In this document: one piece after another, positions 13,148-27,368 of the stretch
Layout of the letters: each line of letters starts with the position of its first letter
How positions within the stretch are numbered: position 1 is the first letter of the stretch
Source of the DNA: Microbacterium pseudoresistens
GTDB lineage: Bacteria > Actinomycetota > Actinomycetes > Actinomycetales > Microbacteriaceae
Reading direction: 5' to 3'
NCBI RefSeq assembly: GCF_013409745.1
Contig: NZ_JACCBH010000001.1
Span: 1,054,001-1,118,000, forward strand
Length of the DNA: 64,000 nt
Made by a program: the position numbers and the translations under genes
Notes under the pieces: generated by a model
Database searches by the model: none
What the model saw: the letters and a program-made list of their open reading frames with translations, nothing else
What the model was told of the DNA's origin: nothing

Positions 13148-14005
13148 TCACTCCCCCGTGCGCGCGGCGCTCCCGTAACCGACCGCGTCGAAGCTTCCGG
13201 CGCCCGGCCCGTCGAAGTATGCCGCGATGCTCTCGACAGTCCACTCGCCGCGAGCCATCGCTCCGATGCGCGGATGGGATATCACGCCGACCTCGTCATG
13301 ACTGCGGCGAACGATCTGACCCCGAAGTCGCGCAGAGCGATCGCTGACGAGATAGCAGACCGCCTCGGCAATGTCCTCGGGTCGAGCATGCCCATCATAG
13401 GGCGGGAGCTTCATCGGGGTGATGGCGAGGGGGGAGATCGCATTGACGCGGATCGGTCCGTCCCACAGCTCGAGTGCCCAGCCGTATGTCAGCGACGCCA
13501 CCGCGCCCTTGGTCGCGCCGTAGACCGACAGTCCGCTGCTGCCCAGATGAGTTCCCGACGTCACGTTCACGATGCTGCCGCCCTGAGGCTGGCGGAGCAT
13601 CTCACGGATTGCCGCGTGCCCGCAGTGGATGGTGGCGGCTATGTTGACCGACAGCATCCGATCGACCCAGTCGTCAGAGATCTCCCACGACGGGCCCTGC
13701 CAGAGAACGCCCGCGTTGTTGACCAGTCCATCGATCGACCCGAACTCTCCCACGCACTGCTGGACGAGCGATGCCGCTCCCGCGGGTTCGGCCACGGATG
13801 CCGTGTGCACGGAAACCGCCGGGCCGAGCGCCGCGATCTCCTTCGCTACTTCTGCAGCGGCGTCCGCATCGATGTCGTTGACCACGACAGACGCTCCGCG
13901 TTTCGCGAGAGCGAGCGCGTATGCGCGGCCGAGTCCGCGACCGGCTCCTGTCACGACGACCGCTTTCCGGTCCAACGTGATCCGTTCCGGTTCCTGCGTG
14001 CTCAT
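13148..14005 (-). CDS. SDR family NAD(P)-dependent oxidoreductase
   Basis: Classical short-chain dehydrogenase with the cofactor motif TGAGRGLG near residue 20, NNAG, a catalytic Ser in NVTSGTH and YGATK as the Tyr-x-x-x-Lys pair. The C-terminal 50 residues after GQIV replace the usual short end with a charged extension (SHPRIGAMARGEWTVESIAAYF), which resembles SDRs that act on CoA esters or sterol-like ketones. It is the last gene of the leftward operon running from 19699; its start overlaps the CMD gene stop by 4 bases. Likely job: oxidise an alcohol or reduce a ketone intermediate. Substrate unknown. Confidence 0.9.
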   Translation of the reverse strand: MSTQEPERITLDRKAVVVTGAGRGLGRAYALALAKRGASVVVNDIDADAAAEVAKEIAALGPAVSVHTASVAEPAGAASLVQQCVGEFGSIDGLVNNAGVLWQGPSWEISDDWVDRMLSVNIAATIHCGHAAIREMLRQPQGGSIVNVTSGTHLGSSGLSVYGATKGAVASLTYGWALELWDGPIRVNAISPLAITPMKLPPYDGHARPEDIAEAVCYLVSDRSARLRGQIVRRSHDEVGVISHPRIGAMARGEWTVESIAAYFDGPGAGSFDAVGYGSAARTGE

Positions 14006-14568
14006 CGGCCGACCTCCAGGGCGAAGACATTGTTGATGTGAGCGATCATCTGGTAGTAGCCAGCCACGACGACGAGGGCGAAAAGCCCCTGCTGGTCATG
14101 ACGATCGAGGATCGCGTTGTAGACGGGCTCAGGCACGACCCGCGAACCGATCATCGCCACCACGAAGTCATAGACTTCGCGGTCGGCGACATCCTCGAAG
14201 ACGGGTGCCGTCCGCAGCGTCTCGATCGTCACACGGGGCACGCCGGCCGCCGCGGCCAGACCTGCGTGCGCCGCCCATTCGACGTCGCTCGACATGAGGT
14301 GCGCGACCGTGAGTATCGCAACCTCCTTGAGCCGGTCGTCGATGCCGGATTCGAAGCGAGCGGCTCTGCCGAGTCGCTCGAGAGGACCCCCGACACCGGG
14401 ATGCAGCAGCATCGCGCGATACGGCCCGGAGAGCACGCCTTCGGCATCCGCGACCGAGAAGAACGATGCCTCGCTCTGCCGCGGACCGCCGACGATGAGA
14501 TCGTAGAGCTCCCTCTGCGATGCGCTGAGCACTTCGGGCCCGAAGCGCGGCAGTCTCATGTCAGTCAT
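14002..14568 (-). CDS. Carboxymuconolactone decarboxylase-like (CMD/AhpD fold) protein
   Basis: The 188-residue protein has the layout of CMD-family proteins in catabolic operons: LSASQRELYDLIVGGPR, HPGVGGPLERLGRAARF, then LKEVAILTVAHLMSSDVEWAAHAGLAAAAGV. The EWAAHAG segment keeps the Glu and His of the family but has no Cys pair, so peroxidase-type AhpD activity is unlikely. Start ATG at 14568 overlaps the flavoprotein stop by 8 bases. Such proteins often act on ring-cleavage or lactone intermediates, but no reaction can be assigned. Confidence 0.85.
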   Translation of the reverse strand: MTDMRLPRFGPEVLSASQRELYDLIVGGPRQSEASFFSVADAEGVLSGPYRAMLLHPGVGGPLERLGRAARFESGIDDRLKEVAILTVAHLMSSDVEWAAHAGLAAAAGVPRVTIETLRTAPVFEDVADREVYDFVVAMIGSRVVPEPVYNAILDRHDQQGLFALVVVAGYYQMIAHINNVFALEVGR

Positions 14569-15958
14569 TGTTCGGAACCTCCGCCGCCTCGCGGACGGCG
14601 TTGATCCCTGCGAGCCTTCCGAAGACGAGTCCCCGCAGGACCGAGGTGGCACCGGGGTACTTGCCGTAGTAGATGCCTGTGCACTCGCCTGCCGCGTAGA
14701 GTCCCCGCATCGGTGCGCCCTGCCCGTCGACGACGCGCGCATGCGCATCCGTGGCGACGCCTCCGTAGGTGAAGACGATGTCGACGATGAGCGGCACCCC
14801 GATGAACGGGGCCTCGACGATGGGACGCGCCCAGTTGGACTTCGGCGGGTCGAGACGCTCGGTCGCGCAGCCGTCGAGCCCCGTCGGATCATACGACCCA
14901 CCATCGGCGGGTGCGGCGTTGTTGAACTTCGCGATCGTTGCACGAAGCGCGTCCCGGTCGAGGCCCAGCGCGTCGGCGAGCTCCTCGATCGAAGCGGCCG
15001 TGACGGGCTTGCGGTCGGTCAACATGCCCCGCTCGATCCCGGGTACGCGATCGAACTCGGCGTCGCTGATGAGGAACGCACGCTGATTCGATCGTTCGAG
15101 GATCGCACGGCTGAGATCCTCGTAGTTCTCATCGGCTGTGCTCGCCCCCTCGTCGAAGAAGCGCTCGGCGTTCTCGTCCACGACGATCCCGTAGCCGAAG
15201 GTCATGACGGAGGCCTCGGACTGATCGCTGCGGCTGTCGACGGGTTCCCCGTGGAAGTTGGACCACTCGCCGCCGCGCGCCGCGCCCAGCTCGATGAGGC
15301 TCTCGACGACGTCGCCCGTGTTCAGGGCTCCGCCGGGAGCGATGGGATGCATGTCGCGCGCGTGCGGGCCGATGTGCTCGGCGAGCATCTCGGGGCTCCC
15401 CTCGAACCCGCCTGACGCGACGACGACGACGTCCGCGCTCAGCGGGACGGCGCCCGACTCGAACGTCAGCTCGTAGGCGTCCCCCACGGCACGAACGCCC
15501 GTGACCCGGTGCGAGTATCGGATCTCGACTCCGAGCTCCCGCGCGGCGGCGGTCAGCTGGCGCACGATCGACTCCCCGCCGCCGACGGGCATCATTCGAG
15601 GCCGGGAAGCCGTGACGAAGTAGGTCGGCCGCCGGTGGAACCGCACGCCGTGCCCCTGAACCCAGTCCATCGTCTCCGGCAACTCCTCCAGGAGGGCGTC
15701 GACGTAGTCGGCGTCAGTGCGTCCGTCCGAGAACGCGATCATGTCCTCGGCGAAGTTCTCGGCCGGCTCGTAGACGTCCTGCAGCCGCAGATAGGCATCC
15801 GTCCAGCGTGTGTTGCCCCCCGCCTCATTGTCGGGGGCGCGATCCAGCAGCACGACGGTGGTACCCGACCCGTTCGCGGCCGCGGTCTCCGCGGCTGCGA
15901 CTGCGGCGGACAGTCCCGCTGCACCCGCGCCGACGACGGCGACGACCCGGGCGCTCAC
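14561..15958 (-). CDS. FAD-dependent oxidoreductase, fumarate reductase/tricarballylate dehydrogenase-like
   Basis: A 465-residue flavoprotein with the FAD dinucleotide motif GAGAAGLSAA near residue 10, the second FAD element GGNTRWTDAYLR, and the C-terminal GGVATDAHARVVD ... GLYAAGECTG ... GLVFGRLAG of the fumarate-reductase/ketosteroid-dehydrogenase superfamily. The substrate-side segment YYGKYPGATSVLRG corresponds to the YPG element of TcuA-like dehydrogenases. It probably introduces or removes a C=C bond next to a carbonyl or carboxylate. No FMN-binding domain or signal peptide is seen. Its start overlaps the hydrolase stop by 4 bases. Confidence 0.88.
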   Translation of the reverse strand: MSARVVAVVGAGAAGLSAAVAAAETAAANGSGTTVVLLDRAPDNEAGGNTRWTDAYLRLQDVYEPAENFAEDMIAFSDGRTDADYVDALLEELPETMDWVQGHGVRFHRRPTYFVTASRPRMMPVGGGESIVRQLTAAARELGVEIRYSHRVTGVRAVGDAYELTFESGAVPLSADVVVVASGGFEGSPEMLAEHIGPHARDMHPIAPGGALNTGDVVESLIELGAARGGEWSNFHGEPVDSRSDQSEASVMTFGYGIVVDENAERFFDEGASTADENYEDLSRAILERSNQRAFLISDAEFDRVPGIERGMLTDRKPVTAASIEELADALGLDRDALRATIAKFNNAAPADGGSYDPTGLDGCATERLDPPKSNWARPIVEAPFIGVPLIVDIVFTYGGVATDAHARVVDGQGAPMRGLYAAGECTGIYYGKYPGATSVLRGLVFGRLAGINAVREAAEVPNND

Positions 15959-16824
15959 TGCGTCACCCCCGCTCCCGAACGCACGAGGTGTCGGCAGATG
16001 AGCTCGGACACCTCATCGGGGCGATCCAGGCTCGGTGCGTGACGAGCCGGCAGCGTGCCGACCGTGACGAGTCTGCTGATGCCCTCGAAGTTCTTCTCCC
16101 AGCCGGGCTCCAGGAGAGGGTCGTCGTCGCACCCGATGACCATCGTGGGCACGCGCACCTGCGCGAGGGCGGCCGGCCATGCGGCGGGTGCCGGGGCGGG
16201 CGGGCGCTGCAGTCCCGCGGGTGGCTTGATCGAGCCGACCATCATCGACTCGACGTGCCCCGGCGCGGCGACGTTGCGCATGCGGGCCTCGACGAACTCG
16301 TCGCGCCCGGGGAACTCACCGGCCATGTGCTCGAGCATCCGCTCGATGTCCGCTGCGGTTCCCTCGAAGCGCCCGAGCTCGGCGGCCCCGAACTCCGATC
16401 GCCACGGCCCGCCTGAGCCTGAGATCGACAGGACGCTGGCGAGCGGGATCGGGGCGCCGGACGAGACCGATGCGCGTAGCAGCAAGGAGCCCCCGAGCGA
16501 TGTGCCCGCTCCGTGCACCGATGTGCCATTGGGAAGGACAGCACGCACGAACGAGCCGAGGTGCTGGGCGCGATAGGCGTACATGGGCCGATCGAAGTGC
16601 ACCGTCTTGCTCGTTCCACCGAATCCGAGCATGTCGGGTGCGAGGACGTGGTAGTCCTCCGCGAGTCGCTCGATGACACTGCTCCACAGCGTCTCGGCGT
16701 CGGCTCCGTACCAGCCGTCATGGACGAGGAGGACCGTGCCTCCCGCCGGATTTCCGGCCTCGACGTAGGTGGTCGTCACTCCGTCGTGCGTGATCTCGCG
16801 ACGCGTGTAAGTGGCGCTGGACAT
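15955..16824 (-). CDS. Alpha/beta hydrolase
   Basis: Alpha/beta-fold hydrolase of 289 residues. The oxyanion-hole region is LLVHDGWYG (His-Asp-Gly), the nucleophile elbow is G-T-S-L-G (GAGTSLGG), an acid candidate is in IGCDDDPLLEPGW, and the His is in PARHAPSLDRPDEV. A Thr-Lys loop DMLGFGGTSK follows the usual meta-cleavage-hydrolase pattern. It is the first enzyme after the ABC importer genes, 52 bases downstream of the permease stop. Likely an esterase, lactonase or C-C hydrolase of the pathway; substrate not known. Confidence 0.88.
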   Translation of the reverse strand: MSSATYTRREITHDGVTTTYVEAGNPAGGTVLLVHDGWYGADAETLWSSVIERLAEDYHVLAPDMLGFGGTSKTVHFDRPMYAYRAQHLGSFVRAVLPNGTSVHGAGTSLGGSLLLRASVSSGAPIPLASVLSISGSGGPWRSEFGAAELGRFEGTAADIERMLEHMAGEFPGRDEFVEARMRNVAAPGHVESMMVGSIKPPAGLQRPPAPAPAAWPAALAQVRVPTMVIGCDDDPLLEPGWEKNFEGISRLVTVGTLPARHAPSLDRPDEVSELICRHLVRSGAGVTQ

Positions 16825-16876
16825 TCATCGCTCCTTGTTTCAGTGGGTGGTAACGGCTCAGCAGTGCGGGCGGAGC

Positions 16877-17734
16877 TCAGTCGTCCTGCCACGGCACGGC
16901 GATCTTGGCGAGTGCCGTGATCGCCGAGGAGCCGAGCCATCCGACGAGGCCGACGATCGCGAGGCCCACGAACATCAGCGGAACGTTCAGGATCTGCCAG
17001 GAGTGCCAGATCAGGTAGCCGACGCCGTCATCACCGCCGACGAACTCGGTCGACACGACGATAATGAGCGCCTGTCCGAACCCCAGCTTGAGGCCGCCGA
17101 TGACGGACGGGATCGCTGCGGGAAGGGTGATGCGGAACAGGCGCACGATGCGCGGCACCTGGAAGGCCGTCCCGACCTCGCGGTAGATCGCGGGACTGTA
17201 TGTGACGCCCGAGACCGTGTTGATCGACACCATGAAGAAGACGCCGAGCACGACCAGGGCGAGCATGCTCGTGTTGCCGATGCCGAAGAACATGATCATC
17301 AGCGGATACAGGGCGAGCTTGGGCAGCGGATAGATGCTGTTGATGAGAGGGCTCAGGGAGTAGCGCACCCATGGGATCAGTCCCATGAGCAGCCCCACTG
17401 CGAGTCCCGCGACCGAGCCCAGGAAGAAGCCGAGGAAGAGACGAGTGCCGGACTGAGCCATGTCTTCCAGCAGCGCCGCTCTCAGGACGGGGTCGACGAA
17501 CTGGTTCACGGCATCCACGAAGACCGTCGTCGGGGCGGGGAAGAAGCGCTCGTCGAGAACCCCCGAGCGGGAGAGGATCTCCCAGACCCCGAGCAGGAAG
17601 AGCGGGGTCAACGTCCCCCAAAGGATCTTCTTGGTGCGTTCACGCTTGCGGCGTCGGCGCAGGCGCTCCGCCATGCGGGCGGACGGCGCGAGGTCGGGGA
17701 GAGCGACGTCGCTCTCTTGAGTGAGCAGTGCCAC
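16877..17734 (-). CDS. ABC transporter permease, NitT/TauT type
   Basis: Inner-membrane permease of the nitrate/taurine/sulfonate/aminopyrimidine importer class. It has six predicted helices and the BPD motif region EVGTAFQVPRIVRLFRITLPAAIPSVIGGLK carried at about residues 190-220 (key part: LPAAIPSVIGGLK). I start it at GTG 17734, which follows AGGAAGGA; the frame extends further but into the ATPase gene. It works with the ATPase and the lipoprotein encoded upstream. It is 17 bases from the ATPase stop, so it is in the same operon. Confidence 0.92.
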   Translation of the reverse strand: MALLTQESDVALPDLAPSARMAERLRRRRKRERTKKILWGTLTPLFLLGVWEILSRSGVLDERFFPAPTTVFVDAVNQFVDPVLRAALLEDMAQSGTRLFLGFFLGSVAGLAVGLLMGLIPWVRYSLSPLINSIYPLPKLALYPLMIMFFGIGNTSMLALVVLGVFFMVSINTVSGVTYSPAIYREVGTAFQVPRIVRLFRITLPAAIPSVIGGLKLGFGQALIIVVSTEFVGGDDGVGYLIWHSWQILNVPLMFVGLAIVGLVGWLGSSAITALAKIAVPWQDD

Positions 17735-17751
17735 GGAAAGTCCTTCCTGAT

Positions 17752-18627
17752 TCAATCGAGCACTATGGTCGCGGTGGACAGGCTCGAGCCGACGGAACCG
17801 GCCACCGCCTGCCACAGCTCGACGACGAGCTCGCCGAACGCCTCGTCACGGCGCAACTCAGTGACATCCGTCGTGGTCTTGGGCGGGGTCTCTCGGACCA
17901 TCGCGATGCGACCGGGGCGTGCTGAGAGGACGATGACGCGGTCGGCGAGGGTGACCGCCTCCTCGATGTCGTGGGTGATGTAGACCACGGTCGAACGCGT
18001 CTCCGACCAGATCCGCAGCAGCTCCTGCTGCATGACGACCCGCGTCTGGGCGTCTAGCGCCGAAAGGGGCTCGTCCATCAGCAGGAGATGCGGCCTGGTC
18101 GCGAGTGCACGGGCGATCGAGACGCGCTGGCGCATCCCGCCCGACAGCTCGTGCGGATACGCGTTCTCGAAGCCCTGCAGCCCGACGAGCTCGAGCACCT
18201 CATCGGCTCTGCGGCTCTTCTCGGCCGAAGAGATGGCGAGCTTTGAGAGCCCCACCGCGGTGATGTTCTTCTTCACCGTGAGCCATGGAAGCGTCGACTC
18301 CATCTGAAAGACGGTCGCGCTCGGCAGTCTTCCGAGTTCTCCGTCGGAGTCCCCGGCGACGATGTCGACCGAGCCGTCGTAGACGGTGTCGAGACCCGCG
18401 AGGAGACGCAGGAGCGAGCTCTTGCCGCAGCCACTAGGACCGATAACGGCGATGACCTCGCCTTCTCGCACCTCGATGTCGATGCCGCGGAGAGCCTCGA
18501 CCTCCTTCCCCTTACGGCTGAGGAAGGTCTTGTTGACGTCGCGGATGGTCACCGCGACGTCAGCCCCCGCCGGGGCGGCCGCCGAAGCGGCCCCCCGAGT
18601 CGGGGCCGAATCAGCTGCCAGCGACAT
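17752..18627 (-). CDS. ABC transporter ATP-binding protein, NitT/TauT type
   Basis: ATPase subunit of the importer: Walker A GPSGCGKSS, Q-loop VFQMESTLPW, signature LSGGMRQR, Walker B LLLMDEP, D-loop SALD and switch His in THDIEEA. All catalytic elements are present. The start at ATG 18627 follows GGAG and lies 17 bases inside the end of the substrate-binding protein gene. An Ala-rich N-terminal extension of about 25 residues precedes the domain. Closest functional class by motif is SsuB/TauB. Confidence 0.93.
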   Translation of the reverse strand: MSLAADSAPTRGAASAAAPAGADVAVTIRDVNKTFLSRKGKEVEALRGIDIEVREGEVIAVIGPSGCGKSSLLRLLAGLDTVYDGSVDIVAGDSDGELGRLPSATVFQMESTLPWLTVKKNITAVGLSKLAISSAEKSRRADEVLELVGLQGFENAYPHELSGGMRQRVSIARALATRPHLLLMDEPLSALDAQTRVVMQQELLRIWSETRSTVVYITHDIEEAVTLADRVIVLSARPGRIAMVRETPPKTTTDVTELRRDEAFGELVVELWQAVAGSVGSSLSTATIVLD

Positions 18628-19699
18628 ATTCTCCGAGCTCCTTGATCGCAGCATCCCGGAACTGCGTGTCGATGAGATCCGCGACGTCGACGTCGACCGC
18701 GAGGTCTCCCGTCATCTGATAGAAGTCGCTGCAGTGCTGGATCCAGTCACTGTCGACGACCTGGTCGGGGTCGAGACCGGCCGGGCTGGCCTTCATGAGG
18801 TCTTCGATGGGGGTTCCGGTGCGCTCCGCGACGACCTCCATGACAGCGCGCTTCTCCTCCTCCGTTCCATAGAAGACCGCATCGTTGTACTCGCGCACGG
18901 CCTTCATGTACGCGTTCATGAAGGCCTGAGCGGTCTCAGCGTCTTCGATGAACGCCGGTCCGTATACGAGCGCAGCCGTGCTGACGCCACGGGGCAGGCC
19001 GTCAGTGAGGTCCGAGACCTCGACAGCGATGTCGTTCGTGATCGCCTGCGTCAGGTACGGCTCCTGCATGACGGCCGCTTCGATCGAGCCTCCCTGCAGG
19101 GCGGCGGTCTGGTCGGGCGATAGGACCGGCGTGATCTGGAAGTCGTCGAGCGAGAAGCCATGGTTCTCGAGGAACGCGGCCAAGTAGACGATCTGGATCG
19201 ACAGGGAGCTGTGGATCGCGAGCCTCTTGCCCTTCAGGCTCTCCAGCGTCGCCGTGATGTCTCCCTTGTCGTACTCGGGAAGCACCGCCAGCCGCGTCGC
19301 GGAGATCGCGGGCGTGTCGCCATCAGCGGGAGCCATGTAGTTCTTGTCGCCGACGATCTTGATGCCGAGATCCTGCTCGACCGACATGAAGGTTCCGGGC
19401 GTCATCGTGGCGCCGGCGACTTCGAGCTGTCCCGTCGCGAGGGCGTTCGTGATGGCGGACGCGTCCGCCAGTCGCTCGAACTTCACCTCGATGCCCGCGT
19501 CTGCGAAGTACCCGCGCTCATCGGCGAGGAACAGACCCGCATCGGCGGCCACCTGCTGGCTTCCGATTCGCACGAGCGTTAGCTCGTCGCTGCCCGGATC
19601 CGCCGGGGTTGTGGATGCGCTGCTGCACGCGCTCACCGGGAGCACGAGGCTCAGAACGGCGGCGGCGATGAGCGCCACCCTCTTCCGTCTACTGATCAT
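18611..19699 (-). CDS. ABC transporter substrate-binding lipoprotein (NMT1/SsuA-like)
   Basis: The 362-residue protein begins with a lipoprotein signal, lipobox VSAC at about residue 25. The mature part has the NMT1/THI5/SsuA fold features: RIGSQQVAADAGLFLADERGYF, then ALATGQLEVAGATM, then KGKRLAIHSS and LQGGSIEAAVMQEPY. Such proteins capture nitrate, sulfonates, taurine, pyrimidine precursors or aromatic acids. Being first in the operon it likely sets the identity of the compound degraded by the downstream enzymes. Its ligand cannot be read from sequence. Transcription most likely starts at the promoter at 19808-19837. Confidence 0.92.
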   Translation of the reverse strand: MISRRKRVALIAAAVLSLVLPVSACSSASTTPADPGSDELTLVRIGSQQVAADAGLFLADERGYFADAGIEVKFERLADASAITNALATGQLEVAGATMTPGTFMSVEQDLGIKIVGDKNYMAPADGDTPAISATRLAVLPEYDKGDITATLESLKGKRLAIHSSLSIQIVYLAAFLENHGFSLDDFQITPVLSPDQTAALQGGSIEAAVMQEPYLTQAITNDIAVEVSDLTDGLPRGVSTAALVYGPAFIEDAETAQAFMNAYMKAVREYNDAVFYGTEEEKRAVMEVVAERTGTPIEDLMKASPAGLDPDQVVDSDWIQHCSDFYQMTGDLAVDVDVADLIDTQFRDAAIKELGEYVAGS

Positions 19700-19807: not shown

Positions 19808-19837
19808 ACATTAGTCTATTGCCCTACAAACGGTCAA
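19808..19837 (-). promoter_or_regulatory. Promoter with operator-like spacer for the ABC importer/catabolic operon
   Basis: On the minus strand TTGACC (-35, 19837-19832) and TAATGT (-10, 19813-19808) are 18 bases apart. The spacer holds TTGTAGGGCAATAG (19829-19816), which is repeated exactly in the promoter at 22804-22833. TTGTAGGGCAA matches the FadR-type GntR consensus TNGTNNNACNA at all but one position. Two FadR-type GntR genes lie within 5 kb. The leader to the SBP start is about 100 bases. Confidence 0.6.
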
Positions 19838-19857: not shown

Positions 19858-20376
19858 TTAGTAGCTGCGCGCGAGAAACGCACCGTAGGCGCCGCCCGAG
19901 TACACCAGCGCCGTCTCGTCACCGTGATACCGCGAGCGGACGATCGCTCCCGTCACGAGATCGTGGTCCCCGCAGCGCAGCGTCGCGTCGAGTTCGCACT
20001 GCAGCACGGCGACTGTCCCCGAGCCCAGGGTGGGGATGCTCGTGATCGGGTCCGAGACGATGAGGTGGGCGATGCGAGCGAGGTCGTCGCCTCCCCGCGC
20101 AAAGGCGCGCGCGACGTCGACCCGGTCAGCCGCCAGATAGTTGACGGAGAAGACGCGCGTGGCCTCCAGCGAGCCGAGGAACGACGTCTTGACGTCCACG
20201 GAAAAGGTCGCCATCGCCGGATCCGCGGACAGCGACGTCGCCGAGGTGCATGTGATGCCGACGACGGTTCCCGTCTCGGTGCGCGTCAACACGACCGCGA
20301 CGGGGCCGGGCACCTGACGGTAGGCCGACCGGAACGATTGCGGAGCGATCGTCCTCAGGGGAGCGAGGGTGTTCAT
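19858..20376 (-). CDS. Flavin reductase family protein
   Basis: A 172-residue flavin reductase-like protein (HpaC/DszD type): FRSAYRQVPGPVAVVLT, then GITCTSATSLSADPAMATFSV, and a late GDHDLVTGAIVRS with the conserved GDH. These enzymes use NAD(P)H to make free reduced flavin for a partner monooxygenase, here probably the LLM protein at 25394-26605. Start ATG 20376 overlaps the ApbE stop (ATGA). It is the last gene of the ALDH-ApbE-flavin reductase unit. Confidence 0.9.
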   Translation of the reverse strand: MNTLAPLRTIAPQSFRSAYRQVPGPVAVVLTRTETGTVVGITCTSATSLSADPAMATFSVDVKTSFLGSLEATRVFSVNYLAADRVDVARAFARGGDDLARIAHLIVSDPITSIPTLGSGTVAVLQCELDATLRCGDHDLVTGAIVRSRYHGDETALVYSGGAYGAFLARSY

Positions 20377-21221
20377 GCATTGTCCTTCCTGACAATCAGT
20401 GCAGCTCCGTCGGCCCACACGGCGTCCACGACGCCCCGAGCCGCGAGCCGCTCGCACTGCGATTGATCGATGATGAGCGCTGTCGCCGCCCACTCCGCCG
20501 CCGTGGCCGTGGCCGCGAGCACCGTGATCGTCTGTGCGTCGACGGCGGCCGGAGCTCCCGTGCGCGGGTCGATGATGTGGTGCGCGACATCCGACGCCCG
20601 CTTGGTGACGCCGCTCGTAGCGACGCCCCCCACGGAGAGCATCACGACCCGGTCGCCGGGGACCTGGACGGCCCATCCCTCACCGACGGGACCTCCCCCG
20701 CGGGCGGCGACGTCGCCGCCGAGGCTCACGACGGCGTCGCCGCCCAGCCTCCGCACCGCTTCGTCAGCCCACACACCCTTCGCGATCGCGCCGAAGTCGA
20801 CGTTTACTCCGGCTGCCAGTCGTGCTCGACCGCGACCCAGCTCGAGCACCTCGAAGAGCGGCCGCACGGGCGACGGCTCCTCCCCGGCGCCCACCCACGC
20901 CGCGGGCCACGGCCGCCGGTATCCGACGTCGATGAGCGCCTGCGTCGTAGCGATGTTGACCAGCCCGAGGCTGTCGGCCTCCACGCGCAGGGCGTGGGCG
21001 AGCATCTGTGACATCTCGTGCGAGATGGTCACCCATTCGCCGCCGGAAGAGTTCAGAGCGCTCAGCTCGCTGTCTTCGCGGAACCTCGAGAACCGCGCGT
21101 CGAGCGAGCGCAGCCACTCCTCGATCCGCTCGTACTCCGCCGCTCCCGCACCCATCGCGGCGTACTCGACGTCCGTGTTGAACACGCGGACCCGATGCAC
21201 CTCGAGCGTGGAAGCGATCAT
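20373..21221 (-). CDS. apbE: FAD:protein FMN transferase
   Basis: ApbE family, which transfers FMN from FAD to a Thr of a target protein. Motifs: RFSRFREDSELSALN near residue 44, VNVDFGAIAKGVWAD, the ATSGVTKR segment and HHIIDPRTGAPA. No signal peptide or lipobox is present, so it should act in the cytoplasm, unlike the exported forms that serve Nqr/Rnf. No FMN_bind domain protein is encoded in this window, so the target is unclear. It sits 11 bases after the ALDH stop and overlaps the flavin reductase start. Confidence 0.9.
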   Translation of the reverse strand: MIASTLEVHRVRVFNTDVEYAAMGAGAAEYERIEEWLRSLDARFSRFREDSELSALNSSGGEWVTISHEMSQMLAHALRVEADSLGLVNIATTQALIDVGYRRPWPAAWVGAGEEPSPVRPLFEVLELGRGRARLAAGVNVDFGAIAKGVWADEAVRRLGGDAVVSLGGDVAARGGGPVGEGWAVQVPGDRVVMLSVGGVATSGVTKRASDVAHHIIDPRTGAPAAVDAQTITVLAATATAAEWAATALIIDQSQCERLAARGVVDAVWADGAALIVRKDNA

Positions 21222-21232
21222 GTCATCGGCTC

Positions 21233-22756
21233 CTACGCACGCGGGTTGAAGGGATCCTTGATTCCCTGCCCCGCATCGATCCAGATGCTCTTCTCCTCGG
21301 AGAACTCCCGCATCGCGTCGATGCCGTTCTCACGACCAAGACCGCTCTGCTTGTAACCTCCGAACGGCGTCGCATAGGACGTCTTGCGGTAGTTGTTGAC
21401 CCACACGGTGCCAGCCCTGAGCAGACCCGCCACGCGGTGCGCGCGGGGGACGGAGCCCGTCCAGACACCGGCAGCGAGGCCGAACTCCGTGTCGTTGGCA
21501 ATGCGGACGGCCTCTTCTTCATCGTCGAAGCGGATGATCGCCGCGATCGGGCCGAAGACCTCCTCGCGCGCGATGCGCATGTCGTTGGTGACATCGGCGA
21601 AGACCGTCGGCCGGACGAAGAGCCCCTCCTTGAGTCCCGGAACCTCCGCGACGACCCCTCCGGAGACCAGCCGCGCTCCTTCTCCGGTCGCGATCCCGAT
21701 GTACTCGAGGACCTTGTCGTACTGCGCGCGGCTCGCGACGGCGCCCATCTGACTCTCGTCCTCACGCGGGTCGCCGACCACGATCGCGTCAGCGCGCCGC
21801 GCAATCCGCTCCACGACCTCATCGTAGACAGTACTCTGGACGAGGATGCGCGAGCCCGCCATGCAGGTCTGCCCGCTCGCACCGAAGATGCCCGCGACGG
21901 CCCCCGTGACGGCGGCCTCGATGTCGGCGTCGTCGAAGATGATGTTGGGCGACTTGCCGCCGAGCTCGAGCGACACCCGGGCGAGGCGGGACGCCGCGCT
22001 GGCGGCGATGGCCTTCCCCGTCGGCGTCGATCCCGTGAACGCGACCTTGTCGACCTCGGGGTGCTCGACGAGAGCGCGGCCCGCTGCGCCTTGCCCTGTC
22101 ACGACGTTGAAGACGCCGTCGGGGAAACCGACTTCGGACGCGATCTGCGCCAGGCGCACGGTCGAAAGCGGAGTGACCTCCGACGGCTTCGCGACGACGG
22201 TGTTGCCGGCGGCGAGAGCCGGTCCGAGCTTCCACACGAGCAGCAGAAGGGGGGAGTTCCACGGCGTCACGGCGCCGACGACTCCGATCGGTTCGCGCAC
22301 CGTGTAGTTGACCATGCCGCGCAGGTGAGTCGCATTCGTCGCGCCGAGGGGGAGCTGCGCCAGGCCGGCATAGTAGTTGAAGTACTCGCGCATGAGCTTG
22401 GTCTGCCCGAACATCTCGCGCATGAGCTTGCCGTTCTCCCGCACCTGCAGGTCGGACAGCTCCTCGGCGTTGTCGGCGATGGCGCTTCCGAAGTCGATCA
22501 GCAGCTGGGCGCGATCGGCGGGGCGCAACATGCTCCACTCTTCCGATTCGAAAGCGCGCCGCGCACTCCTGACCGCGAGATCGACCTCTGCGGCTGTCGC
22601 ATCGAGCGCGCGATTCCACACGCGTCCGGTCGCAGGGTCGCGCACGTCGAAGTACTGTGCGCCGTCGGGGCGCACGAGTCGCCCATCGACGTAGATGCCG
22701 TCCAGTGCGGTGGTCTCGGCTGTCGAGCGGTCGTCCCGGGTGATCGTCTGCCTCAT
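21233..22756 (-). CDS. Aldehyde dehydrogenase family protein
   Basis: NAD(P)-dependent ALDH of 507 residues. It has TPWNSPLLLLVWK at the cofactor site, the catalytic Glu in SLELGGKSPN, the catalytic Cys in GQTCMAGSR, and EEVFGPIAAI plus GGYKQSGLGRENG near the C-terminus. I use the ATG at 22756, which has GAGGATG just upstream and leaves a leader of about 45 bases from the promoter; the in-frame ATG at 22804 would overlap the -10 box. Likely oxidises the aldehyde made by the cluster's monooxygenase or hydrolase chemistry. Confidence 0.92.
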   Translation of the reverse strand: MRQTITRDDRSTAETTALDGIYVDGRLVRPDGAQYFDVRDPATGRVWNRALDATAAEVDLAVRSARRAFESEEWSMLRPADRAQLLIDFGSAIADNAEELSDLQVRENGKLMREMFGQTKLMREYFNYYAGLAQLPLGATNATHLRGMVNYTVREPIGVVGAVTPWNSPLLLLVWKLGPALAAGNTVVAKPSEVTPLSTVRLAQIASEVGFPDGVFNVVTGQGAAGRALVEHPEVDKVAFTGSTPTGKAIAASAASRLARVSLELGGKSPNIIFDDADIEAAVTGAVAGIFGASGQTCMAGSRILVQSTVYDEVVERIARRADAIVVGDPREDESQMGAVASRAQYDKVLEYIGIATGEGARLVSGGVVAEVPGLKEGLFVRPTVFADVTNDMRIAREEVFGPIAAIIRFDDEEEAVRIANDTEFGLAAGVWTGSVPRAHRVAGLLRAGTVWVNNYRKTSYATPFGGYKQSGLGRENGIDAMREFSEEKSIWIDAGQGIKDPFNPRA

Positions 22757-22803
22757 TGCATCCTCAAGTCTGCTGATCTTGGCCGCGGATACGGTCGGAT
22801 GCA

Positions 22804-22833
22804 AGACTAACCTATTGCCCTACAATTCGTCAA
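22804..22833 (-). promoter_or_regulatory. Promoter with operator-like spacer for ALDH-apbE-flavin reductase
   Basis: Minus strand: TTGACG (-35, 22833-22828), 18-base spacer, TAGTCT (-10, 22809-22804). The spacer has the same TTGTAGGGCAATAG (22825-22812) as the importer-operon promoter. Position in the divergent gap next to a GntR gene points to control by that regulator; this is inference. Confidence 0.6.
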
Positions 22834-22852
22834 TCGACCTCATTGGGGAAAC

Positions 22853-22863
22853 TGGTGGTACAT
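22853..22863 (+). promoter_or_regulatory. Possible GntR operator ahead of the divergent gntR gene
   Basis: TGGTGGTACAT matches the FadR-type consensus TNGTNNNACNA except for the last base and lies 9 bases before the GTG start of the GntR gene. It could be an autoregulatory site. Short and degenerate, so tentative. Confidence 0.35.
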
Positions 22864-22871
22864 TTCAGCGT

Positions 22872-23627
22872 GTGAGCGACTCTTCCGTGCTGTACCCCGT
22901 GCGCCGTGTCGCCTCGCCCGTCCGAGAGCAGACGGCCGAGGCAATCCGGATCCAGATCATGTCCGGCGGGTTGCGTGAGGGACAACGGCTGGTCGAACGC
23001 GAACTGTGCGAGCAGCTCGACGTCTCCCGCAACACCCTCCGGGAGGCGTACCGTCAGCTCGAGGCGGAGGGCTTCATCGACATCCGCCCTCACAAGGGCC
23101 CCACTGTCGCCCGCATCACCCCGAGCGACGCGACGTCGCTGTACGAGATGCGCGAGGCACTCGAGGGAATGGCCATCAAGGTCTTCACCCTGCGTGCGAG
23201 CGACGCCGATCTCGCCGAGCTGGTCGAGTCCTTCGAACAGCTGCGCACAGCCCACACGCAGTCCGACACGAATGCCGTCCTGCAGAGCAAAGAGGCCTTC
23301 TACGACGTGCTGTATCGCGGCGCGGCGAACAAGGTTCTCGAAAGCCACGCCCGGGTGCTGCGCGGACGCCTCGCCCAGCTGCGCGTACGGTCGCTGTCAC
23401 GGGGATCGCGTCGCGAACAGATGCTCCTGGAGATCGACGCGGTGCTCGAGCACATCAAGAAGCGCGACGCCGAAAGAGCCCAGAGTGCATGGTGCGAGCA
23501 CATTCGCTTGGCTGCTCGCGCCGCAGAGGAATCGCTCGCGGCGGCAGCATCCGAGGCGGAGGATCGCACCCCGGATCCCGGCGAGGATCACCACCAGCCG
23601 ACGAACTCGTCCCCCAGCGCCCGGTAA
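22872..23627 (+). CDS. GntR family transcriptional regulator (FadR subgroup)
   Basis: The N-terminal winged helix contains REQTAEAIRIQIMSGGLREGQRLVERELCEQLDVSRNTLREAYRQLEAEGFI (key parts: GLREGQRLVERELCEQL and VSRNTLREAYRQLE), followed by an all-helical FCD ligand-binding domain from about residue 85. The GTG at 22872 is taken as start because the DNA upstream holds the divergent promoter. It is transcribed away from ALDH, the standard layout for a local repressor. Its 3' end overlaps the other GntR gene by 40 bases, tail to tail. The effector is probably a pathway intermediate. Confidence 0.9.
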   Translation: MSDSSVLYPVRRVASPVREQTAEAIRIQIMSGGLREGQRLVERELCEQLDVSRNTLREAYRQLEAEGFIDIRPHKGPTVARITPSDATSLYEMREALEGMAIKVFTLRASDADLAELVESFEQLRTAHTQSDTNAVLQSKEAFYDVLYRGAANKVLESHARVLRGRLAQLRVRSLSRGSRREQMLLEIDAVLEHIKKRDAERAQSAWCEHIRLAARAAEESLAAAASEAEDRTPDPGEDHHQPTNSSPSAR

Positions 23628-24331
23628 CGACGCTCGAACCCCAGCGAGAGCTCGACCATGTGCTCACGCATGCGATCCTCCGCGAGATCGGGGTCGCCCT
23701 CCATCACAGCCTCGGCGACCTCACGATGCTCGCGCAGAACGAGCTCCCGGCGCGCCGCCGGTTGCTCGACCGGAACGACACGGCCGGTGTAGACCTCTTT
23801 GAGCGACCGACCGAAGAGGTCGAGCACCGCGTTGCCGGAGATTCCGGCAATCACACCGTGGAACCGCTGCGTCGCCTCGAGATAACCGTGATCGTCCTCA
23901 GGATAGTCCTCCAGCGTCGCCGCGAGTGCGCGCAGGCCATCGGCATCGCGCCGTCGCGCTGCGAGCGCAGCCATCATCGGCTCGAGGAGCACGCGGGCTT
24001 CGAGCACCTCCCAGAACCGGGTCTGGCGCATCTGGAGGAACCAGGTGAGGGATCGCGCGAATGTCACAGGATCCACTTCTCCCACCTGCGGGCCGCCGTT
24101 GCGACCAGGCTTGAGCACCACGAGCCCGTGCGTCTCGAGGATCCGCAGCGCCTCGCGGACCGTCGCACGCGACACGCCGAAGTGATCGGCCATCTCCGCC
24201 TCAGGCGCGAGGGGTTCACCGGGAAGCCTGCCCCGTGCGACGATCTCGTCGACAACAGATCGGGCGACCGTCTCGGCGAGCTTCACGACACGGGGACGGC
24301 TCGGCGACGAACCGGTGAGTGCGCGTGACAC
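23588..24331 (-). CDS. Second GntR family regulator (FadR subgroup)
   Basis: 247 residues. The helix-turn-helix is PLAPEAEMADHFGVSRATVREALRILETHGL (key part: FGVSRATVREALRILE), with an FCD domain behind it (EARVLLEPMMAALAARR, HREVAEAVMEGD, MREHMVELS). GTG start at 24331 follows GGGAGGAGGA. It is the last gene of the third leftward unit, 34 bases after the SDR stop. A candidate operator for it is the perfect palindrome at 27385-27395 at the head of its own operon, which would make it autoregulatory. Confidence 0.88.
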   Translation of the reverse strand: MSRALTGSSPSRPRVVKLAETVARSVVDEIVARGRLPGEPLAPEAEMADHFGVSRATVREALRILETHGLVVLKPGRNGGPQVGEVDPVTFARSLTWFLQMRQTRFWEVLEARVLLEPMMAALAARRRDADGLRALAATLEDYPEDDHGYLEATQRFHGVIAGISGNAVLDLFGRSLKEVYTGRVVPVEQPAARRELVLREHREVAEAVMEGDPDLAEDRMREHMVELSLGFERRYRALGDEFVGWW

Positions 24332-24365
24332 GTGCGTCCTCCTCCCGGCCGCGAGCGGCGCGTCG

Positions 24366-25154
24366 TCAGTTCCCGGCGGGTTGACTGTATCGGATTGTGG
24401 AGCCGCCATCGATGACGACATGCTCCCCTGTGATGTGACGGCTGAGGTCGGAGGCGAGGAACACGACGAGGTTCGCGACATCCACCGGCTCGGCGAGTCT
24501 CCCGATCGGGATCTCGCGTCGGTAAAGTTCGCCCAGCTCCCCTTCCGCCAGATGCAGGCGTCTCGGCGTCCGGGTCGATCCAGGACGCACCGAGTTGACG
24601 CGCACGCCGTGCGGGGCGGCCTCTATCGCCAGCGACCTCACCAGCGAGTCGAGCCCCGCCTTGGCCACTCCGTACGGGATGCGCAGAGGCGAGGACTGCT
24701 GCGCGTTGATCGACGAGATCACGACGACGCTGCCCGAACCGCGTTCCATCATTGCGGGCAGGAAGGCCTGTGCGACGAGGAACTGCTGGCGCAGGTTGAG
24801 GCCGATGATCTCGTCCCACAGCTCGACATCGGTCTCGCCTACGCCGCGGGCGGGGCCGCCGATCCCGACGACGTTGACGAGCACGTCCGGGAGCCCGAAG
24901 GAGCCGACGACCGCCGCCATGAGCTCCTGCACGCCCGCCGCATCGCGCACATCGCACTCGAAGCCGGCATGCCCCTCCCCGTCGAGCGCCGCGACGGCGT
25001 CGTCGGCACGACCGGGGTCGATGTCGACGACGCCGATGCGCGCACCGAGCGCTGCGAAGGTGCGCGCCGTCTCGAGTCCGATGCCGGGCCCGGAGCCGAT
25101 CACGAGCACGCGGCGGCCGGCCAGACCGGGAGCGAACGCCTGAGGGGTCGTCAT
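24366..25154 (-). CDS. SDR family oxidoreductase
   Basis: Short-chain dehydrogenase with cofactor motif GSGPGIGLETA (a variant of TGxxxGxG), DID for NAD(H) preference, NVVGIGG in place of NNAG, catalytic Ser in VISSINAQQ and YGVAK. C-terminus GEHVVIDGGSTI is standard. The Asn of the NNAG motif is shifted (VNVVG), a modest oddity. It overlaps the tautomerase stop by 4 bases. Likely acts on an alcohol or ketone in the same pathway as the LLM monooxygenase. Confidence 0.9.
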   Translation of the reverse strand: MTTPQAFAPGLAGRRVLVIGSGPGIGLETARTFAALGARIGVVDIDPGRADDAVAALDGEGHAGFECDVRDAAGVQELMAAVVGSFGLPDVLVNVVGIGGPARGVGETDVELWDEIIGLNLRQQFLVAQAFLPAMMERGSGSVVVISSINAQQSSPLRIPYGVAKAGLDSLVRSLAIEAAPHGVRVNSVRPGSTRTPRRLHLAEGELGELYRREIPIGRLAEPVDVANLVVFLASDLSRHITGEHVVIDGGSTIRYSQPAGN

Positions 25155-25336
25155 CCGTCGGAGTCCAGGATCCCCGCCTTGGCGAAGTTGGTCAACTCGA
25201 TCTCTTCTATCACGATCGTGACGCTCGCCGGCGTGCATCCGAACGAAGAGACGACGGCGTCCGTCACGGAACGCGCGAGGTCCGCCTTCTGCTCATGGGT
25301 GCGTCCTGCCTTTGCCTGGACGATGATGCGAGGCAT
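25151..25336 (-). CDS. 4-oxalocrotonate tautomerase-like protein
   Basis: 61-residue tautomerase-superfamily protein. Pro follows the initiator Met (MPRIIVQAKAGRT), which after Met removal gives the catalytic N-terminal Pro1. The core EQKADLARSVTDAVV and TIVIEEIE matches 4-OT proteins; the usual Arg39 position is not evident. It would catalyse keto-enol isomerisation of an unsaturated oxo-acid. The gene lies between LLM and SDR genes with a 57-base gap upstream. Confidence 0.85.
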   Translation of the reverse strand: MPRIIVQAKAGRTHEQKADLARSVTDAVVSSFGCTPASVTIVIEEIELTNFAKAGILDSDG

Positions 25337-25393
25337 GGGTGATTCCTTTCTTCGGATACCGCTTCGTCGCGCCTCGGACTGAGGGCACGTATG

Positions 25394-26605
25394 TCAGGAG
25401 ACGGCGCTGGCCAGGACGGGTGCGATCGGCGCCGTGTCGTTGGCGATCCGCCATGACGTGTCGTCGTCGCCCCAGTTCACTCCGAGGTGCTGCACACGCG
25501 GCATGACCTCGCGCGCGAAGAGCATGATCGAGTCCCGCACCTCGTTGCTCGTCATCTCCCCCGCCTGGTTCATGAGGACGATGTTGCCCACCCCCGTCTT
25601 GGCGTAGAGTCTCTCGATCTGCGCCACGACCTGGTCCGGTGTGCCGACCAGGGCGATGCCCGCCTCGATGAGCTCCTCGAACGACTTGCGACGCACTGCG
25701 CCCATGGTGCCCCGCATCGCTGCCACCGCATCCGATGCGGACGAGTATCCGGGAGGGATCGCCGCACCCAGCCGCATGCGACCGGCCCGTAGATAGAACA
25801 TGAGCTTCTCGCCGATCTCACGCGCCTTCTCCTCGGTCTCCGCGACGTGGCAGAGCGCGAGATAAGCGAACTTGTCGGGTCCGGGCTCGCCGAGCCCGGC
25901 GTCCGCAGCCGTGCGTCGATAGAGCCGGAATGTGTTGGCGGCATCGTCGTAGGCGCCCAGCAGGTTGCAGAGCGTGTGCTCCTGCTCCGCCGTCCATCTC
26001 ACGAGCCGCTCAGCGGTACCGCTCACCCACACCGGGGGAACCGGTTGCTGGAACGGACGCGGCCAGATGCTCACGTATCGGTAGTGGTAGAACTCGCCCT
26101 CCCACGAGAAGATGTCGCGCTGGCGCCACGCCTCCTGGATGAGGTCGTGGGCCTCGAAGAACATGTCGAGGTTGCGCGCCGGGTTCGCGTTGGACGGATA
26201 GGTCTCGCCCTGGACCCCGCGGACGAAGCCGCAGTTGACTCGGCCTCCGCTGATGTTGTCGAGGAAAGCCATCTCCTCCGCGATGCGCACGGGACTCGGG
26301 TGGTGGGGCACGGGCGTGCCGAGCACGAGCACACGACCGTTGCGCGTGCGCTGGATGACGGTTGCAGCGCTCAGCGACGCCGATACGTGCAGAGTCGCGG
26401 CGGACTGGTGGTGCTCGTTGACCATGACGTTGAACCCCAACTCGTCGGCGAGCTCGTACTCGTCGAAGTAGCGCTGGTAGAGATCGTGCGCCTTGAGCGG
26501 GTCGAAGTACTTGTTGGGCATGAAGTACTTCAGGCCGCCGTGCTGTTCCTCGACCTCCGGCGGAACGTACGGGTAGGGCATCTCTGTGAAGTGGAAGAAC
26601 TGCAT
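25394..26605 (-). CDS. LLM class flavin-dependent oxidoreductase (luciferase-like)
   Basis: 403-residue bacterial luciferase-like monooxygenase. It begins MQFFHFTEMPYPYVPPE, and has NVMVNEHHQSAATLHVSASL, LGTPVPHHPSPVRIAEEMAFLDNISGGRVNCGFVRG (key part: LDNISGGRVNCGF), and a late GTPDQVVAQIERLYA. These are hallmarks of FMNH2- or F420-dependent LLM proteins. With a flavin reductase nearby it is best seen as the oxygenase of a two-component monooxygenase, possibly a type II Baeyer-Villiger enzyme. The ATG at 26605 is 4 bases after the hydrolase stop. Confidence 0.9.
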   Translation of the reverse strand: MQFFHFTEMPYPYVPPEVEEQHGGLKYFMPNKYFDPLKAHDLYQRYFDEYELADELGFNVMVNEHHQSAATLHVSASLSAATVIQRTRNGRVLVLGTPVPHHPSPVRIAEEMAFLDNISGGRVNCGFVRGVQGETYPSNANPARNLDMFFEAHDLIQEAWRQRDIFSWEGEFYHYRYVSIWPRPFQQPVPPVWVSGTAERLVRWTAEQEHTLCNLLGAYDDAANTFRLYRRTAADAGLGEPGPDKFAYLALCHVAETEEKAREIGEKLMFYLRAGRMRLGAAIPPGYSSASDAVAAMRGTMGAVRRKSFEELIEAGIALVGTPDQVVAQIERLYAKTGVGNIVLMNQAGEMTSNEVRDSIMLFAREVMPRVQHLGVNWGDDDTSWRIANDTAPIAPVLASAVS

Positions 26606-26609
26606 GTCG

Positions 26610-27368
26610 TCATCCCTTGAGTTGTGCGTGGAAGGAGCGGACAGCCGCGGCGAAGGCATCGGGCTGTTCGAGGTACGGGTAGTGGCCTGCGTCGGGGATT
26701 TCGACGTACGTCGCCCGCGGAAGGCGTTCGGCGAGTTCGCGGCTGTGCCCCTCGGCGACCATGCGGTCGTGGGATCCGGCGATCACGAGGGTCGGAACAT
26801 CGATCACGTCGAGCCAGCGTCCGAGCTGCGGGCTATGGAGGAAGGGCTTCCAGATGTAGCGCGTCAGCGTCGCGCGCTCGGCGAAAGCGGTCTCGTGCTC
26901 GGCATCGTCCGGGGTCGGCGGATAACCGGGCATGCGCAGGCCGTGAGCACGCGACGGGTCGGCCCATCCGAGCTCGAGCTGCTCATCGGCGTCGAGCAGC
27001 ACGATGTCAGCGAACTCGCGCTCCATGGGGCCGCGCAGCTTCACGCCGTACGGCCCGACCAGGACGAGGCTCTCGAGGCGCTCGGGGCACAGGAGCGCCA
27101 GTTCCAGGGCCACCCAGCCTCCGAAACCCGCCCCACCGACGCGGACGGCCTCGCCGCGAGGGATTTCCCTGCGCACATGCAGCGCGAGGTCGGCGGCGGT
27201 GTCCCACCTCTCCCACGCTCGATCGAGGTCGTCGAAGTGGCCCTCCATACCGGGGTAGCCGGGAACGGTGATCTCGTGCGTCTGCGCGAGCGGTCCCAGC
27301 ATGTCGGCGTCCCGGATCACGACATCGGCATCGTGCAGGAACAGAAAAGGCGTCTTCGCTTCGACCAT
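26610..27368 (-). CDS. Alpha/beta hydrolase-fold protein lacking the nucleophile Ser
   Basis: First gene of the third unit. 252 residues with the alpha/beta hydrolase layout: LFLHDADVV near the N-terminus, a late acid in IAGSHDRMV and the His in IPDAGHYPYLEQPD. At the nucleophile elbow it reads G79-A-G81-F-G83 where the family has GxSxG (often GASFGG), so Gly81 takes the place of the catalytic Ser. The rest is intact and the gene is first in its operon, so it is unlikely to be mere decay. It may be a lyase, a binding protein or an inactivated copy. ATG 27368 follows AGAGGATG. Confidence 0.82.
   Translation of the reverse strand: MVEAKTPFLFLHDADVVIRDADMLGPLAQTHEITVPGYPGMEGHFDDLDRAWERWDTAADLALHVRREIPRGEAVRVGGAGFGGWVALELALLCPERLESLVLVGPYGVKLRGPMEREFADIVLLDADEQLELGWADPSRAHGLRMPGYPPTPDDAEHETAFAERATLTRYIWKPFLHSPQLGRWLDVIDVPTLVIAGSHDRMVAEGHSRELAERLPRATYVEIPDAGHYPYLEQPDAFAAAVRSFHAQLKG

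Follow-up and report, generated by a model that had tools for sequence, protein, structure and literature searches.

The 64,000-nucleotide stretch of the Microbacterium pseudoresistens genome analyzed here (contig NZ_JACCBH010000001.1, positions 1,054,001 to 1,118,000; hereafter the window) contains 16 genes at positions 13148-27368 that are kept together in five other actinobacteria. They encode a two-component oxygenase of the luciferase type, an ABC importer, two regulators, a series of further enzymes and a protein of the ApbE flavin transferase family. The reading we favor, with confidence somewhat short of even, is that these genes form one horizontally acquired, inducible catabolic regulon in which the luciferase-like monooxygenase (LLM) opens a ring and a lower pathway resembling that of meta-cleavage finishes the degradation. 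Two oddities of the conserved regulon are ABH2, a hydrolase-fold protein without nucleophile, and ApbE.

Fifteen of the genes run leftward in three units, and the gene of the regulator GntR1 runs rightward, divergent from them. Unit A comprises ABH2-LLM-Taut-SDR2-GntR2, unit B ALDH-ApbE-FR, and unit C SBP-ATPase-permease-ABH1-FAD-CMD-SDR1, all leftward. Gene set, coordinates and strands are as in the original prediction, which had been made from the letters of the sequence, and Pfam confirmed every domain named there: NMT1/BPD_transp_1/ABC_tran, Bac_luciferase, Flavin_Reduct, two adh_short, FAD_binding_2, CMD, Tautomerase, Aldedh, two Abhydrolase, ApbE and two GntR+FCD. The features of the cluster are listed below with their window coordinates.

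26610-27368, minus strand: ABH2, alpha/beta-hydrolase fold without serine nucleophile, partner of LLM (Pfam Abhydrolase_6/1)
25394-26605, minus strand: LLM, FMNH2-dependent luciferase-like monooxygenase (Pfam Bac_luciferase, 8.2e-42)
25151-25336, minus strand: Taut, 4-oxalocrotonate-type tautomerase (Pfam Tautomerase; Pro1)
24366-25154, minus strand: SDR2, short-chain dehydrogenase (Pfam adh_short_C2, 8.8e-59)
23588-24331, minus strand: GntR2, FadR-type (FCD) regulator (Pfam GntR and FCD; ortholog in 5/5 loci; start picked by eye)
22872-23627, plus strand: GntR1, divergent FadR-type (FCD) regulator (Pfam GntR and FCD; ortholog adjoins ALDH in 5/5 loci; start picked by eye)
22814-22833, minus strand: predicted promoter-operator element TTGACGAATTGTAGGGCAAT before ALDH (also precedes ALDH in orthologous loci)
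21233-22756, minus strand: ALDH, aldehyde dehydrogenase, BADH/HpaE-like (Pfam Aldedh, 5.3e-173; under NCBIfam cut-offs among the matches listed)
20373-21221, minus strand: ApbE, flavin transferase-family protein (Pfam ApbE, 3.8e-40; alignments)
19858-20376, minus strand: FR, flavin reductase, likely LLM partner (Pfam Flavin_Reduct, 2.1e-29)
19818-19837, minus strand: second predicted promoter-operator element TTGACCGTTTGTAGGGCAAT, before the importer operon
18611-19699, minus strand: SBP, lipoprotein substrate-binding protein of the NitT/TauT (SsuA/NMT1) class (Pfam NMT1_2/NMT1)
17752-18654, minus strand: ABC importer ATPase (Pfam ABC_tran, 7e-31)
16877-17815, minus strand: ABC importer permease (Pfam BPD_transp_1, 2.6e-19)
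15955-16824, minus strand: ABH1, alpha/beta hydrolase with Ser-Asp-His (Pfam Abhydrolase_6)
14561-15958, minus strand: FAD, FAD_binding_2 dehydrogenase, TcuA-like (Pfam FAD_binding_2, 1.2e-39)
14002-14568, minus strand: CMD, carboxymuconolactone-decarboxylase-family protein (Pfam CMD, 1.9e-06)
13148-14005, minus strand: SDR1, short-chain dehydrogenase (Pfam adh_short, 1.4e-45)

A scan of GTDB species genomes with LLM revealed five orthologous loci with 70-72% identity, in Qaidamihabitans, Prauserella, two Streptomyces and Amycolatopsis. Because it relies on exact eight-residue words, the scan under-counts weaker relatives. The full set of 16 genes was found together by tblastn in all five loci; copies of FAD, ALDH and GntR1 that ran off the initial stretches were located after extending the loci. 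The synteny search that had been proposed for LLM, ApbE, CMD and SBP thus recovered these four and the other 12 genes in every locus, which contradicts the possibility that the units are unrelated neighbors. Gene order varies: the neighbor of the FAD gene is ALDH in the five orthologous loci, but in the window it adjoins ABH1 and CMD. Around the 16 genes, no further conserved gene was found within 17.6-48 kb of surroundings at the orthologous loci and 31 kb in the window, where open reading frames (ORFs) were called with a rough score based on GC content at third codon positions (GC3). Just eight ORF pairs match outside the unit. Each is shared by two loci, with identities of 25-53%, the upper value covering 49 residues, and most of the pairs represent ALDH- or LLM-like paralogues or other family-level likeness. 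Pairwise identity vectors of 13 gene families in the six taxa (leaving out ALDH, FAD and GntR1, which were incomplete there) correlate with a mean r of 0.92 and a lowest value of 0.81. The joint occurrence in five of five loci, together with these correlated identities, indicates a single history for the 16-gene unit, of which LLM and ALDH are the most conserved proteins (70-73% identity to the window copies). The prediction of a single, dedicated catabolic cluster equipped with an importer of its own and two regulators is therefore supported by its conservation as a unit across actinobacteria.

The cluster also shares cis-elements with its orthologues. A 20-base element, TTGAC..WTTGT...RCRAT, has two copies in the window, one before ALDH (22814-22833) and one before SBP (19818-19837). 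It did not occur in 100 shuffles (expected 0.00), a test that overstates the element because it was defined from those sites and their orthologues. Its position is better evidence: the element lies between ALDH and GntR1 as an exact match in four of the five orthologous loci and with one mismatch in the fifth. Elsewhere in the fetched loci it was not found, save for overlapping copies of the same places and of the window. The core, which resembles the FadR-family operator TNGTNNNACNA, sits between a TTGAC -35 and a -10-like hexamer (TAGTCT, TAATGT). The element is thus a candidate operator between -35 and -10, as expected of a repressor site. A second motif, TAAAYNGNATNATGNWT, precedes ABH2 in all five orthologous loci and ApbE in three of them, counts that come without a shuffle control; examples are the sites at 9197-9213 and 2464-2480 of orthologous locus L009. 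This motif is perhaps the site of GntR2. Even with two mismatches allowed, the window has no copy of it, and regulation in the window therefore differs from that in the orthologous loci at this point.

LLM finds its best solved match in 7bip (106 bits), an antibiotic-tailoring enzyme, followed by bacterial luciferases. Its match to 3,6-diketocamphane monooxygenase (4uwm) is weak with 30.2 bits, and it scores 25.6 bits against SsuD (1m41). The Baeyer-Villiger-type oxygenation that the original prediction had proposed for LLM has the weak sequence kinship to 4uwm in its favor and is putative. The flavin reductase gene is located directly downstream of ApbE in all six loci. ABH2, encoded next to LLM, has a GAGFGG elbow instead of G-x-S-x-G, with a glycine at the nucleophile position in all six orthologues and with Asp201 and His229 kept. 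Two hydrolase-fold proteins had been predicted, and both indeed have the Abhydrolase fold, but ABH2 lacks the serine nucleophile.

Distant LLM relatives are present in 761 plasmid records, every one with less than 60% identity. We read 13 distant loci, some of them near-duplicates, comprising eight of the 40 plasmid matches listed and all five genome-search matches. An alpha/beta hydrolase adjoins LLM in 13 of 13. The nucleophile elbow of six plasmid hydrolase partners retains serine in five, with glutamine in R. opacus. These wider pairs of LLM and alpha/beta hydrolase (loci L019-L022 and L041-L049) occur on rhizobial, Agrobacterium, Pukyongiella and Rhodococcus plasmids and in actinobacterial genomes, and in several annotated cases the pair is accompanied by a flavin or NAD(P)H reductase, SDRs or an importer. 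Another distant homologue, at locus L015 (G653:C126:38823-40022), has a single in-frame TGA within the match. Synthesis of indole-3-acetic acid by y4wF-like LLMs was considered and rejected: the link to the cluster is a 38% identical LLM, and the sources for the name y4wF are a single plasmid record and a review (PMC10459833).

Several of the remaining enzymes resemble those acting after meta-cleavage. The five best solved chains for ABH1 are all meta-cleavage product (MCP) hydrolases (80.7-85.4 bits), and its triad is intact in the alignment (Ser109, Asp235, His262). NCBIfam HsaD is matched at 41.5/400 bits (score/cut-off), and ABH1 is thus not an equivalog of it; here and below, NCBIfam figures refer to the best 25 matches of each protein, with longer lists existing for SDR1, SDR2, FAD, ALDH, ATPase and GntR1. 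The tautomerase has its catalytic Pro1 (MP- start) in all six loci and matches named tautomerases below their cut-offs (48.3/56.9, 44.6/55 and 55.3/80 bits). Likewise, ALDH matches HpaE and 2-hydroxymuconic semialdehyde dehydrogenase, both under cut-off. CMD retains Glu82 and, in six of six, EWxxH without CxxC; it yielded no NCBIfam match and no solved relative by sequence. For the FAD enzyme, the best solved chain is 1qo8, a flavocytochrome c3 fumarate reductase, in line with the fumarate-reductase-like flavoprotein that had been predicted, but its best NCBIfam match is TcuA (tricarballylate dehydrogenase; 348.5 bits, under the cut-off of 369). It is unlikely that both hydrolase-fold proteins hydrolyze lactones or esters, as proposed earlier, since ABH2 has lost its nucleophile and ABH1 is closest to C-C bond hydrolases. 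Taken from the sequences, the features of ABH1, Taut and CMD point to a lower pathway like the one that follows meta-cleavage, with LLM in the place of the dioxygenase; ring fission by LLM is what we infer from this arrangement.

The modeled structure of SBP narrows its ligand no further than the general SsuA/TauA/THI5/CmpA class. The best NCBIfam family of SBP is SsuA_fam (81.2 bits, cut-off 163.5), and the permease and ATPase match TauC, SsuC and SaoA under cut-off. The structure prediction that had been suggested for SBP gave a model with pLDDT 67, which Foldseek matched best to SsuA and TauA; this places the protein in its class, but the pocket is not readable at that quality.

The locus looks foreign to its host and was probably acquired by transfer. 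At E<=1e-80, LLM was found in one of 295 genus genomes, namely its own, and in two of 398 family genomes including its own, the second copy being 41% identical. At E<=1e-60 it occurs in five of 394 class genomes including its own, and the other four copies are 36-38% identical. The GC content is 0.670 in the unit and 0.703 and 0.696 on the flanks, and GC3 is likewise lower in the unit than in flanking genes. A Pr6Pr-type gene lies just upstream of argG in two of 11 congeners, like the left-hand gene of the window. This hints at an empty insertion site, although the match is ambiguous because another gene of this kind lies at the left edge of the window (85-579).

In the mechanism we propose, the lipoprotein SBP and the NitT/TauT-type ABC importer would take up a small ring compound, probably with a carboxylate or other anionic group. 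The data speak neither for nor against the terpenoid, alicyclic or heteroaromatic substrate suggested in the original prediction. FR would supply FMNH2 to LLM, whose oxygenation would open the ring, and ABH2, with its nucleophile lost, may aid this step without serine chemistry. The open chain would then be treated like a meta-cleavage product: the Pro1 tautomerase would isomerize it, the SDRs and the TcuA-like FAD enzyme would oxidize and desaturate it, the MCP-hydrolase-like ABH1 would cleave it, the CMD-family protein would decarboxylate, and ALDH would form an acid entering central metabolism. GntR1 would keep the ALDH and SBP promoters repressed from the operator between -35 and -10 and would be released by an intermediate. 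ApbE would either flavinylate an unrecognized cytosolic partner or hydrolyze FAD to FMN for the oxygenase. The cluster would then form a complete catabolic unit. Among the family matches listed, none gives its gene set a named function, and its co-inheritance in six actinobacteria means that one substrate screen on any of the six strains could assign 16 genes.

Several points weigh against this regulon reading. The nearest solved relatives of LLM are luciferase-like enzymes and not known ring openers, and the structure models (pLDDT 42 for LLM, which was not used, and 67 for SBP) give no readable pocket. Pfam found none of the enzymes among the 16 genes (hydratase, aldolase, CoA enzyme, amidase) with which a known pathway would be complete. 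The GC3 contrast, 0.84 for the 16 cluster genes against 0.89 for 30 flanking genes (Mann-Whitney p=4e-4), is somewhat inflated because the picker of flanking genes itself rewards high GC3. Finally, none of the 16 proteins reached a curated NCBIfam cut-off among the matches listed, and therefore no pathway step is fixed; naming the pathway in this way was dropped. The nearest to a cut-off among these matches are the FAD enzyme (TcuA, 348.5/369 bits), SDR2 (a broad SDR subfamily, 191.3/215) and the tautomerase (48.3/56.9). The same result agrees with the earlier statement that no described pathway is known to have this full gene set, and no published account of the set was found in titles and abstract openings among the literature matches listed, chiefly open-access papers.

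Other types of metabolism would use parts of the same gene content. In a type II Baeyer-Villiger pathway, an SDR would produce a cyclic ketone, LLM and FR would lactonize it, ABH1 would open the lactone and ALDH would finish. All these enzymes are present in the cluster and 4uwm is among the LLM matches, yet that match has 30 bits against 106 for 7bip, the nearest solved relatives of ABH1 are C-C bond hydrolases, ABH2 has no nucleophile, and the tautomerase, CMD and ApbE are left unexplained. We regard this pathway as unlikely, though it deserves more credit than the other alternatives. Organosulfonate assimilation would combine an importer like SsuABC, an LLM like SsuD and a reductase like SsuE, which together would yield sulfite and an aldehyde for ALDH to oxidize. 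The transporter speaks for it: SsuA_fam is the best family of SBP (81.2/163.5 bits), SsuA and TauA are the best Foldseek matches, and the permease and ATPase match TauC, SsuC and SaoA under cut-off. LLM itself does not conform, with 36.7 bits on the NCBIfam alkanesulfonate monooxygenase (SsuD family) at a cut-off of 518.2, which is not reached, and 25.6 bits on 1m41; moreover, ten catabolic enzymes far exceed the needs of desulfonation and a sulfite-handling family is absent among the 16. The cluster is thus improbable as a sulfonate system. It shares with the Ssu/Tau systems the importer class, an LLM and a flavin reductase, but differs in an LLM that is not SsuD-like and in its large extra enzyme set. 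If the cluster instead served to modify a secondary metabolite, in biosynthesis or detoxification, this would be consistent with 7bip, an antibiotic-tailoring enzyme, as the closest solved chain of LLM and with orthologues in Streptomyces, Amycolatopsis, Prauserella and Qaidamihabitans. However, the 16 conserved genes include no synthase, exporter or resistance family, and the dedicated importer, the two FadR-type regulators and the operator-like element before ALDH fit uptake and use, which makes such a function very improbable.

Degradation of an N-heterocycle is a narrower form of the regulon reading and overlaps it. In pathways of the trigonelline (Tgn) or pyridine (Pyr) type, a two-component LLM opens the pyridine ring, and an ALDH and a hydrolase process the N-formyl intermediate. 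An LLM, a flavin reductase, an ALDH and a hydrolase make up the Tgn and Pyr pathways, and all four are present in the cluster. Hydantoinase genes occur at a distant LLM locus in Pukyongiella. An amidase or formamidase domain is absent among the 16 by Pfam, and the RutA family (TIGR03612) is not among the 18 NCBIfam families matched by LLM. This more specific proposal is accordingly rather unlikely, if somewhat less so than the sulfonate system. The uracil pathway offers a related comparison: in Rut, too, a two-component LLM works with a flavin reductase, and they are joined by a third protein whose need is unclear, the alpha/beta-fold RutD. ABH2 matches the NCBIfam model of RutD at 45/238.5 bits. 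Apart from the missing RutA match, the cluster differs from Rut in having no isochorismatase (RutB-type)-, Rid- or uracil-permease-type protein among the 16, and in having an ABC importer, a tautomerase, CMD, the FAD enzyme and ApbE. RutA and RutF open the uracil ring (PMC8113886).

Among ring-degrading systems, the meta-cleavage lower pathways resemble the cluster in an ABH1 near MCP hydrolases, a Pro1 tautomerase and an ALDH approaching HpaE and 2-hydroxymuconic semialdehyde dehydrogenase; they differ in that extradiol dioxygenase, hydratase and aldolase are absent among the 16, with LLM occupying the place of the oxygenase. The kpi cluster for 4-hydroxypyridine in Arthrobacter IN13 is likewise an actinobacterial ring-catabolic cluster of 16 ORFs, and both contain a flavin monooxygenase, an alpha/beta hydrolase and a FadR-type regulator. 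The kpi ring, in contrast, is opened by a dioxygenase of the amidohydrolase family, and the available portion of the kpi report does not mention an LLM, ApbE, CMD or NitT/TauT importer (PMC7356986).

ApbE has a clear PF02424 domain (138.5 bits, cut-off 25.6) and appears to be cytosolic, since no signal peptide was seen at its N-terminus by eye, without a prediction program. No second ApbE is present in its own genome or in four of the five genomes with orthologues; Amycolatopsis carries additional copies, and one of these lies beside an FMN_bind protein. In a class-wide search the own copy scored 443.7 bits and the next best 155.5, a gap that is partly built in because the own copy is part of the profile. 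The catalytic triad of ApbE is Ser-His-Asp (PMC12052999). By our mapping, Ser203 and His215 are invariant in six of six, and the acid position has Glu in four and Asp in two. FAD-binding ApbEs contact the isoalloxazine with a Tyr, and Ala or Asn at this position leads to pyrophosphatase activity; Phe47, found there in all six orthologues, is not among the variants given in the consulted part of that source (PMC4767422). The cluster protein may possibly act as an FAD pyrophosphatase, which the Phe at the switch position does not favor.

Known targets of flavin transferases are scarce in the genomes concerned. FMN_bind (PF04205) was not found in the five genomes with a single ApbE and is present in one of the six, there beside another ApbE copy. 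NQR2/RnfD and DUF2271 (PF03116, PF10029) were found in none of the six genomes; DUF3570 was not searched for. Among 29 class genomes with other ApbEs, 14 carry FMN_bind and 15 do not, so that its absence is suggestive only, and our use of it as proof of an orphan target was softened accordingly. No column matching [ST]GA[ST] or the longer flavinylation motif is conserved in any of 16 protein families, and hits to the core are sporadic (five in 92 sequences, some partial, and one in 15 re-extended ALDH, FAD and GntR1 frames). A single strict D-x-x-[ST]-G-A-[ST] match, at the ABH2 C-terminus in locus L010, was discarded as unconserved; it lies at the gene end overlapping the LLM start, where its codons look like the LLM ribosome-binding site. 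A motif scan of ApbE neighborhoods proved powerless, as the motif occurs in five of 29 other ApbE loci and three of 19 background loci. The cluster protein therefore shares the domain and the Ser and His of the triad with ApbE flavin transferases, but differs in a genome without detected FMN_bind, NQR2/RnfD or DUF2271 and in the lack of a conserved [ST]GA[ST] in the 16 families.

A 2021 survey of flavinylation in eLife found ApbE without known substrate in 4% of the genomes of its dataset (PMC8238504); genes with neither a signal peptide nor a lipidation site had been set aside in that survey. A cytosolic example is the fumarate reductase system of Klebsiella, as described in PMC12052999. ApbE of the cluster might covalently flavinylate a partner outside the known target families and without the known motif, most likely FR, which is directly downstream in six of six loci, or LLM; we consider this quite unlikely. 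If true, a luciferase-type two-component oxygenase would depend on covalent FMN, and reduced flavin would be passed on a tether and not by diffusion. To our knowledge, there is no known case of such an oxygenase with a covalent-FMN tether. The cluster also offers a tractable way to test whether ApbE modifies cytosolic enzymes that belong to none of the known target families.

Around the cluster, the stretch of about 940 bases that separates the Pr6Pr-type gene from SDR1 (12210-13147) contains no confident gene, and ORFs 12583-13347 and 12353-12913 near SDR1 gave no family match when scanned. Further to the left, at 9580-11447, two ORFs adjoin each other, and an HNH-like stretch was seen by eye in the second; neither has a Pfam match at 1e-3, and they possibly represent a broken gene left of the island. 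The sole RNA gene in the window by ARAGORN and by Rfam at gathering thresholds is a tRNA-Leu(CAG) at 57113-57197. The AT skew at 40001-48000 (0.16 and 0.20) stands out from the rest of the window as strongly positive.

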